DNA of 42,751 nt from Bacteroidota bacterium (lineage in GTDB: Bacteria > Bacteroidota > Bacteroidia > Bacteroidales > UBA5342): assembly GCA_003249935.1 (NCBI GenBank), contig QKHT01000315.1:1-42751 (forward strand), written 5' to 3'. How positions within the stretch are numbered: the first letter of the stretch is position 1; every line of letters starts with the position of its first letter. Below, piece after piece: positions 24,802-26,877 of this stretch. The position numbers were made by a program, and so were the translations under genes. Below the pieces are notes generated by a model. That model ran no database searches, was not told the origin of the DNA, and was given only the letters and a program-made list of their open reading frames with translations.

Positions 24802-25932
24802 TCAGAACGCCATCCAACGGATATATCTGTCGGGCAAAACCGAGTTACAAGCTTCTTTATAATCGTCGGGAATACATGCTACAATGCGCCTTTCGTCGTT
24901 TTGCGACACATCCATCCACCAACGGTTATTATCGCTGTTATGGTAAAACACAATATCGCTGTCGGTATCGGTTTGGTGAACCACAAACTTCTGGTACGAA
25001 AGCCATGGCCGTTTGGGATGATCGCCGTACCGGTTGGCCAAGCCTTCGAGTAAATGCCACAGCGTTTGGGCACCAAGCTTTGCCGACAAACCACGCATAT
25101 CGGCTTCGGGGTTCATTTCGCAAAGATTAAACGACCACAACTTATCGCTAAAACCGGCAAAACGGGCCATTTGGCAAAACTCTTCGCCATACAAACCATT
25201 GGGTCCGGAGGTAAGGCAGCCCGGCGAATCGGAAAACCGCACCGCCGCCATATCGAACGAAATTACCTGACTATCGCGGAACAACGGTTCGGCCAGTTCG
25301 CGGTTCATTCTAATTTCGCCCAAACGCAATGCAAAATACGGAAAGCCGTCTAATTGCGTTAACGGTTCAATTTCGGTTTGATAATTTTGCCAACCAATAA
25401 GATTAAAAGCTGCCAAGCGGTTATTGGTCAACAACGATGTAAGAAACGACAAATGATCCACATCACCGGGGTTGCAAACATCGGCAAAGCCATCGACAAT
25501 GCTGAGTGTAAGTTTCGAATCCACAGAAAGTGCTTTGCATACTTCGGCCGTAAGATCGTGCGAACCGCCAATAATAACCGAAACAATATTCAGGTTTTTA
25601 AGGGTTTGAACCACATCGCGCAGGGCCTGATGGGCATTACTCAAAGAAAGCCCCGGATGTATATCGCCAAGGTCGGCCACTTTGATTGAACCAAAATCGT
25701 GCCTTAAACCATACAATTCGCGACGTACAGCATCGGGTGCTTTGGCCGAACCTCGGTTGGCCACCCCCTGAATGTCGTACGGAAAGCCTATAATAGCCAC
25801 ATCGGGCAAATCGGCATCCGAAGGATTTTCCATAAGTTTTGCAGCAACAGTCGATTGCTTTCTAACTGTTGATGTTTCGGAAAGTAATACATTCGACTTT
25901 TGAAAAAAATCGGTTAGTTCACTAAATATCAT
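24802..25932 (-). CDS. Ureohydrolase-superfamily (formimidoylglutamase/arginase-like) protein with incomplete metal site
   Basis: This 376-aa protein has the arginase/agmatinase/formimidoylglutamase fold. GGSHD (residues 122-126) matches the first metal motif GGDHS. The DAHxD motif reads DGFAD (147-151) and the SxDxDxxDP motif reads SFDMAAVRFSD (225-235). By analogy with arginase, the ligands of metal A (His125, Asp147, Asp151, Asp227) are kept, while the two ligands unique to metal B are replaced by Phe149 and Ala229. Normal dinuclear-manganese hydrolysis is therefore doubtful. It starts 3 bp after the flavoenzyme gene, so the two form an operon. Databases often label such proteins formimidoylglutamase; that activity is not supported here. 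Confidence 0.85.
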   Translation of the reverse strand: MIFSELTDFFQKSNVLLSETSTVRKQSTVAAKLMENPSDADLPDVAIIGFPYDIQGVANRGSAKAPDAVRRELYGLRHDFGSIKVADLGDIHPGLSLSNAHQALRDVVQTLKNLNIVSVIIGGSHDLTAEVCKALSVDSKLTLSIVDGFADVCNPGDVDHLSFLTSLLTNNRLAAFNLIGWQNYQTEIEPLTQLDGFPYFALRLGEIRMNRELAEPLFRDSQVISFDMAAVRFSDSPGCLTSGPNGLYGEEFCQMARFAGFSDKLWSFNLCEMNPEADMRGLSAKLGAQTLWHLLEGLANRYGDHPKRPWLSYQKFVVHQTDTDSDIVFYHNSDNNRWWMDVSQNDERRIVACIPDDYKEACNSVLPDRYIRWMAF

Positions 25933-25935
25933 ATC

Positions 25936-26877
25936 TTAAATAAGTGTTATTCTGTTTTTGGCTTGGTTGAACCCGTTGATAAGGGTTTGAAAAATTTCGG
26001 CCACGGGCTGAACCGACGAAATATGCGAAGCTACCTGGCCAATTTCCAATTCGCCCTCCACGATGTTTCCCTCAAAAATACCACGTTTGGAGCGACCTTT
26101 ACCAAGCAGCAATCTCAGATTTTCGGCATTTTCGCCACGGGCTTCGGCTTCGAGTACAGATTGACAGAAAGCATTTTTGAGCATACGAACCGGTGCCAGT
26201 TTTTTCAGGCAAAGCACCGTATCGCCTTCGTGGCTATCCACAACATACTGCTTAAACATTTCGTGTGCCGACGATTCCACACTTGTGGCAAACAACGACC
26301 CGATTTGCACACCATCGGCACCAAGAGCCAAGGCGGCCAGCATGGCCTCGCCCGAACCAATGCCACCGGCAGCAATTAACGGAATTTGAACCGCTTTACG
26401 TACTTCGGGAATAAGTACCATGGTCGTGGTTTCGTCGCGGCCATTATGTCCGCCGGCTTCAAAACCTTCGGCAACAACAGCGTCTACGCCGGCATCCCGG
26501 GCTTTTTCTGCAAACTTTGCACTACTTACCACGTGCACGACAGTAATTCCGGCCCTTTTTAATCGTGCAGTATATGTTTTAGGGTTTCCGGCCGATGTAA
26601 ACACTATTTTTACCCCTTCCTGCTCAACAATATCGATTAATAAATCGAGTTCTGGATAAAGCATCGGTATATTTACCCCAAAAGGTTTTTTTGTAGCTAA
26701 TTTAGTTTTAACAATATGTTCGCGAAAAGTATCGGGATGCATAGAACCTGCACCAATTAACCCAAGGCCGCCGGCATTACTTACAGCCGAAGCCAACCGC
26801 CAACCACTGCACCAAACCATACCACCCTGAATAATAGGATACTGTATTCCAAATAGTTGTGTAATCGAAGTGTTCAT
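25936..26877 (-). CDS. FMN-dependent nitronate monooxygenase / FabK-like enoyl-ACP reductase family
   Basis: This 313-aa TIM-barrel flavoprotein starts MNTSITQLFGIQYPIIQGGM. The FMN-binding segments IIQGGM, AAGGIGSGEAM and LGADGVQIGSLF are visible, and AEGFEAGGHNG carries His144, the residue that in FabK and in nitronate monooxygenases is near the flavin and catalytic. The EAGGHNG-TTTMVLIPEV stretch resembles FabK more closely than classical 2-nitropropane dioxygenase, so enoyl-ACP reduction is a real alternative. It is the first gene of a two-gene operon with the ureohydrolase-like gene. Confidence 0.85.
   Translation of the reverse strand: MNTSITQLFGIQYPIIQGGMVWCSGWRLASAVSNAGGLGLIGAGSMHPDTFREHIVKTKLATKKPFGVNIPMLYPELDLLIDIVEQEGVKIVFTSAGNPKTYTARLKRAGITVVHVVSSAKFAEKARDAGVDAVVAEGFEAGGHNGRDETTTMVLIPEVRKAVQIPLIAAGGIGSGEAMLAALALGADGVQIGSLFATSVESSAHEMFKQYVVDSHEGDTVLCLKKLAPVRMLKNAFCQSVLEAEARGENAENLRLLLGKGRSKRGIFEGNIVEGELEIGQVASHISSVQPVAEIFQTLINGFNQAKNRITLI

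Follow-up and report, generated by a model that had tools for sequence, protein, structure and literature searches.

The window (the whole stretch of DNA analysed, 42,751 nucleotides of a Bacteroidota genome) encodes a ureohydrolase-fold protein in which both ligands used only by metal B of the dinuclear centre are replaced. We propose, with confidence a little better than even, that this pseudo-ureohydrolase is a catalytically remodelled cytoplasmic protein with a binding or regulatory role, whose gene is ancestrally arranged with topA and the genes of the T9SS motor. One caution accompanies this reading throughout: linkage is not function. On this reading the protein would serve topoisomerase I, the T9SS motor or the two together. 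It is best read as a divergent member of a separate clade of pseudo-ureohydrolases rather than as a hydrolase minus one metal; its fold is already known, and the variant is uncharacterised.

Fold and metal centre of the window protein

The coordinates of the gene and of the residues discussed below are collected in Table 1. Pfam Arginase (PF00491) recognises the window protein at 77.6 bits, against a cut-off of 22, which makes it a member of the superfamily. The AlphaFold2 model (mean pLDDT 86.8, pTM 0.90) recovers what, as predicted, is a true ureohydrolase (alpha/beta arginase) fold; its best solved structural matches are T. cruzi formiminoglutamase (4myn, Z 36.5) and B. subtilis HutG. No signal peptide is evident by eye, so a cytoplasmic location is predicted. 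When the collection was first scanned with this protein, 37 stretches matched, but no relative was among them.

Table 1. Positions of the pseudo-ureohydrolase gene, its domains and ligand positions, and its upstream neighbour in the window
Feature	Position	Strand	Remarks
Pseudo-ureohydrolase CDS	24802..25932	-	intact ORF, 376 aa
Ureohydrolase-fold domain, residues 24-302	25027..25863	-	Z 36.5 and rmsd 1.9 over 275 residues aligned to T. cruzi formiminoglutamase
C-terminal extension, residues 303-376	24805..25026	-	predicted to form four strands and two helices; not present in the 17 near outside relatives
His125, metal-A position	25558..25560	-	direct reading; Gln in 82/120 members
Asp147, ligand position	25492..25494	-	direct reading; present in 111/120 members
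Phe149 replacing metal-B His	25486..25488	-	direct reading; Lys/Arg in 48/120 members
Asp151, metal-A position	25480..25482	-	direct reading; present in 102/120 members
Asp227, ligand position	25252..25254	-	direct reading; present in 108/120 members
Ala229 replacing metal-B Asp	25246..25248	-	direct reading; Asp in 5/120 members
FMN enzyme (nitronate monooxygenase / FabK-like), upstream neighbour	25936..26877	-	PF03060 210.8 bits; TIGR03151 302 bits

An earlier note on this DNA had assigned His125, Asp147, Asp151 and Asp227 to metal A and had seen the ligands used only by metal B replaced by Phe149 and Ala229. All six residues are as it claimed when read directly from the ORF, and all six fall at ureohydrolase ligand positions both in a profile alignment to solved formiminoglutamases and in an alignment of 120 family members with 17 near outside relatives. 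The positions of Asp147 and Asp227 are those of the bridging ligands in arginase. With Phe149 and Ala229, the window protein does not have the six ligands of a dinuclear centre, and the loss is family-wide: both B-only ligands are missing in 109 of the 120 members, residue 149 is His in seven and residue 229 is Asp in five, a single divergent row (L097) has both, and no member has all six ligands. The near outside relatives, by comparison, all carry His149 and Asp229 (17/17), and 13 of them have the complete set. These frequencies are specific to the sample, which consists of the window protein and 119 of 140 sequences kept after removal of duplicates, mostly best hits. Nor was another His or Asp found at the B site: the nearby His160 aligns to Ser in 17/17 outside relatives. 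Since the metal-B substitutions are family-wide and the Flavobacterium copies of the gene are under purifying selection, they are more than chance. A two-metal hydrolase mechanism is very unlikely in the window protein. In one family (f62), three loci (L165, L166 and L167) have a different pattern of loss, with Asn125, Ile149 and Asp229, and topA is still near the gene.

Metal A presents a less uniform picture. Residue 125 is Gln in 82 members, His in 19, and another residue or a gap in 19, and at least 16 changes between these three states are needed on the tree. The full metal-A set is found in 17/120 members, namely the window protein and 16 others. The Asp triad (147, 151, 227) is complete in 79/82 members with Gln125, in 17/19 with His125 and in 3/19 of the others; between His and Gln members, neither retention of the triad (Fisher p 0.24) nor the presence of Lys/Arg149 (p 0.44) differs. 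Because residue 125 has changed state at least 16 times and is Gln in most members, and the triad is kept equally well beside Gln and His, the triad argues only weakly for a bound metal. Judged from these alignments, a retained metal A is not the rule of the family; one metal could still bind, although the residues give no sign of it.

An A-like site built from Gln/His125, Asp147, Asp151 and Asp227 might hold a single metal and support new chemistry, in a mononuclear metalloenzyme or a one-ion binding protein, a reading that we rate as unlikely. All four positions are retained, with Gln or His at the first, in 96/120 members, and the triad is mostly lost from the 19 others, as if the four residues formed one unit; those 19 rows, however, include divergent or truncated members, and the unit-like loss may be a matter of alignment or ancestry. 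In wild-type T. cruzi formiminoglutamase the metal-A His is replaced by Asn (according to chain sequences and structure entry titles), which means that this enzyme tolerates a weaker ligand at site A. The Lys or Arg149 of 48/120 family members, however, would place a positive charge near the former second metal, and position 272, which aligns with the substrate-site Glu of the hydrolases, is not Glu in 46/120. The earlier note had suggested a mononuclear enzyme or a binding protein. Of the two, the binding protein is the more likely, and, given the prevalence of Gln125, a complete metal-A set is not supported as the mark of a mononuclear enzyme; with His125 exchanged for Gln and the Asp triad kept, the mononuclear enzyme was lowered from its place as main reading.

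A separate family with gained features

The family extends well beyond the window's genome. Of 60 related genomes, 45 gave matches in a protein search, with identities of 22-46%; a few of these matches are weak and may represent ordinary ureohydrolases. A profile search of the order gave matches in 210 of 295 genomes, with the window's own genome counted; no close relatives of the window gene were found in its genus. In a phylum set of 296 genomes, those of the matches listed that reach the end of the 388-position profile all belong to the window's class, which contains Flavobacterium-like genomes and so corresponds to Bacteroidia in GTDB usage, and those listed outside this class stop at or before profile position 323 and look like ordinary ureohydrolases. 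In a quick LG+G4 tree search with a single-matrix model and long branches present, a branch with an SH-aLRT of 100 separates 105 family rows, the window protein included, from the 17 near ureohydrolases and 12 canonical ones. This tree leaves out six rows that are truncated or divergent, as well as some Flavobacterium rows that are nearly identical. The divergent row L097 (profile E 7e-32) was dropped before one of the family counts. Three genomes of family f112 (G358, G461 and G553) contain two or three profile matches each, possibly paralogues or fragments.

Members are recognised by residues that they have gained as much as by the ligands that are gone. R203, E215, R219, C253 and W292 are present in 115, 119, 118, 112 and 119 of the 120 members, respectively, against 0, 1, 1, 0 and 0 of the 17 near outside relatives. 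The window protein carries all five as well as the C-terminal domain and so belongs to the family; with 28 other rows of the first alignment it shares these residues and W338, W339 and Y358. Going by the list of strands in the model, Gln182 and Arg203 would each stand at the end of a strand close to the former active site. The extension after position 302 has a median length of 82 residues in the family and is never longer than 3 in the 17 outside relatives, and in the window protein it is modelled as four strands and two helices with a pLDDT of 91.3. In four members no Pfam family scored above its cut-off for this domain (15.4 bits against 24.2 for the window protein), and Foldseek returned nothing at E <= 0.001 among 84 matches with E <= 10, negatives that are weak evidence of anything for a domain of only 74 residues.

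Gene neighbourhood and co-occurrence with the T9SS

We compared 79 of 81 loci, including the window; L081 and L162 were dropped, as the gene was not picked out in them. Neighbours were named in one locus, where TopA, PorP/SprF, GldK, GldL, GldM and GldN all score over the cut-offs of their NCBIfam models, and were assigned in the other loci by BLAST clusters. topA lies directly upstream of the family gene in 47/79 loci, separated from it by a median of 12 nt; in 36/79 the next gene downstream is porP or gldK, at a median distance of 163 nt. These gap sizes rest on starts guessed as the first ATG. Both sides are occupied in this manner in 33 loci, the topA side only in 14, the porP side only in 3 and neither side in 29, the window among them. 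The wide gap to porP or gldK makes a shared transcript with the T9SS genes less probable than one with topA. Where the gene stands apart from the T9SS block, its companions are specific to the lineage: in three loci of one family (L132, L134 and L138) it adjoins a divergent NAD-dependent epimerase-like gene and proteins of 370-390 aa that form one cluster, and in four loci of another (L144, L146, L150 and L151) an NqrF gene lies upstream of it.

The arrangement is most regular in Flavobacterium. Among the best 80 of 411 loci named in a search with a Flavobacterium alignment, nearly all of them titled Flavobacterium, 79 have topA, the family gene, gldK, gldL, gldM and gldN in this order on one strand; the order was scored for these genes, with intervening genes outside its scope. 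In the remaining locus the search recovered only topA, the family gene and gldK. The 79 include F. johnsoniae CI04. The excerpted text of PMC5445135 gives GldK of F. johnsoniae as Fjoh_1853 and GldL and GldM as Fjoh_1854 and Fjoh_1855. As gldK is Fjoh_1853 and the family gene stands just before it, the family gene of strain UW101 should be Fjoh_1852. The matches listed in open-licence PMC contain no occurrence of Fjoh_1850, Fjoh_1851 or Fjoh_1852 and no paper that treats a pseudo-ureohydrolase beside topA, gldK or the T9SS, and those listed for the T9SS, gldK or gliding do not name formimino- or formimidoylglutamase; those for arginase together with Flavobacterium johnsoniae are, by their titles and abstracts, unrelated. 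From the loci taken together we infer that the arrangement topA - gene - (porP) - gldK-gldL-gldM-gldN is ancestral.

The Flavobacterium copies are under purifying selection and clearly maintained. Median pairwise dN/dS (Nei-Gojobori, pairs with dS 0.1-1.5) is 0.044 for the family gene, with 1396 of 1770 pairs usable at a median dS of 1.16, which is near saturation, and 0.035 for topA, 0.033 for gldK, 0.050 for gldN, 0.102 for gldL and 0.119 for gldM. These values come from 60 of the 79 complete loci; 20 of the 80 were left out, one incomplete and 19 complete. Mean amino-acid identity is 0.911 for the family gene, 0.960 for topA, 0.964 for gldK and 0.895 for gldM. In many members of the order, and in other families of Bacteroidia too, a strongly constrained protein adjoins the genes of the T9SS motor.

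Across the 295 genomes of the order, a family-profile match is present in 204 of 268 GldM-positive and in 6 of 27 GldM-negative genomes (odds ratio 11, Fisher p 4e-8, ancestry ignored), some of these matches being weak, down to 1e-10, and perhaps other ureohydrolases. GldM scored above its cut-off in 261 of the 268, and the matches number 203 and 6 if the window's own genome is set aside. Among the six GldM-negative genomes with a match, G359 and G474 have GldK over its cut-off, the match in G378 is weak (7.6e-14), G518 is only 83% complete, and the GldK matches of G564 are all below cut-off; G517, a complete genome in one contig, has a family match at 4e-59 and no GldM or GldK match. In the phylum set, G249 and G308, which are of the window's class and have GldM, gave no family match, and G289 and G297, genomes of the order, gave neither GldM nor a family match. 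The gene mostly accompanies the T9SS without being tied to it, and since 64 of the 268 GldM-positive genomes of the order have no match, it is not a universal T9SS part. Six T9SS-bearing families represented by three genomes each (f3, f20, f22, f26, f29 and f31) have high GldM scores and no family match, and so offer a contrast from which the role of the gene might be deduced. With the T9SS core GldK-GldL-GldM-GldN the family shares its neighbourhood in Flavobacterium-type loci, as described above, but the core proteins are of other protein families, and GldM is present in many genomes that gave no pseudo-ureohydrolase match.

The above data show that the fold is kept in the family and that its dinuclear centre is dismantled, with the B-only ligands gone, the A-site His usually exchanged for Gln and the B-site His often for Lys or Arg; a polar Gln/His and Asp-Asp-Asp site, the new near-invariant residues and the C-terminal domain are maintained. 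We propose that hydrolysis of guanidino or formimino compounds by a two-metal mechanism has been lost and that the remodelled pocket accommodates a single ion, a small-molecule ligand or another protein. The protein would then regulate, or serve as a scaffold for, the processes with which its gene is arranged, those of the T9SS/gliding motor, of topoisomerase I or of both. A more specific and tentative version of this proposal, which we think possible but do not favour, is that the family is an overlooked cytoplasmic T9SS/gliding factor derived from a dead ureohydrolase, a sensor of a ligand or ion whose remodelled pocket controls how the GldKLMN motor is assembled, expressed or kept active. 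Should the gene prove to act on the T9SS or on gliding, a misleading family name will have hidden a component of a well-studied machine.

The same neighbourhood could also reflect a role in topoisomerase I function or nucleic-acid metabolism, with the proximity of the T9SS genes a side effect of gene order. The linkage to topA is both the commonest and the tightest, and 14/79 loci keep topA without an adjoining porP or gldK. Against this, topA is, to our knowledge, near-universal in bacteria, yet the full-length family matches listed for the 296 phylum genomes are confined to the window's class; presence of the gene follows GldM in the order, and the gene survives apart from topA, as it does in the window. 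We consider this explanation improbable.

The window copy, its genome and related systems

In the window, the neighbourhood usual for the family, which is frequent and not defining, is absent: neither is topA upstream nor porP or gldK downstream, and GldM, topA and the pseudo-ureohydrolase lie on three contigs of the genome (C309, C179 and C61). The partner gene was rightly described by the earlier note as encoding an FMN enzyme, given its PF03060 score, with TIGR03151 below its cut-off of 453 bits; its stop codon lies 3 nt before the ATG of the pseudo-ureohydrolase. This partner clusters with no protein at the other 78 loci, and a function for the pseudo-ureohydrolase deduced from it was dropped on account of that 0/78 recurrence.

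Neither of the two flanking proteins tested with Pfam is a hut protein. Model scores support the view of the earlier note that the window protein is not a formimidoylglutamase: the equivalog model TIGR01227 gives the window protein 90.8 bits, below its cut-off of 229.15. It shares with HutG (TIGR01227; T. cruzi 4mxr/4myn, B. subtilis 3m1r) the fold over residues 24-302, at 26% identity with 4myn, and recognisable GG-x-(H/N/Q)-D, DxxxD and SFD motifs, but it differs in the absence of both B-only ligands, in the extra C-terminal domain and in the new near-invariant residues. A working formimidoylglutamase or other ureohydrolase with an altered metal centre would fit the nearest solved fold, a formiminoglutamase, and the PF00491 score well above cut-off; set against the TIGR01227 score, the missing ligands and the flanking genes, it is highly improbable. 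The genome also has an FTCD domain (PF02971, 165.7 bits), through which formiminoglutamate may be handled without HutG. We note that resemblance to the superfamily may invite the name formimidoylglutamase, by which a step of histidine degradation would be wrongly filled.

Other ureohydrolase-fold proteins have lost metal ligands. MetCb, the metal-free subunit of metformin hydrolase, appears in the excerpted text of PMC11271267 as a pseudo-ureohydrolase with lost metal ligands that works as the partner of an active paralogue. The window protein resembles it in the loss of ligands but differs in that its genome (4.27 Mb, 97.5% complete) has a single PF00491 match; a MetCb-like partner subunit was dropped for this genome, since no second PF00491 protein was found. 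Hai et al. (2015), cited in PMC11271267, reportedly described an arginase-like protein of T. brucei that lacks a binuclear cluster; it shares with the family a non-catalytic arginase fold and differs in being eukaryotic. The one paper found to mention both arginase and type IX secretion concerns a genome of Prevotella intermedia, whose arginase is an accessory gene carried by mobile transposons.

That the window copy is a decaying relic, as its different neighbourhood, its end branch of 1.18 against a median of 0.29 and changes at 7 of 45 highly conserved positions might suggest, is scarcely credible against an intact 376-aa frame that retains 38 of the 45 positions 90% conserved among 112 other members (seven rows dropped) and the eight residues common to 28 other rows. 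The window copy stands away from topA and the T9SS genes and has diverged fast, with its conserved positions largely kept. The T9SS genes themselves form a compact porP-gldK-gldL-gldM-gldN block on contig C309 (L173:479-7902), without topA or the pseudo-ureohydrolase, in which GldM was named by model and all other genes by eye. Two further genes named by eye, one HD-domain-like and one for an LptB-like ABC ATPase, come before this block on the same strand.
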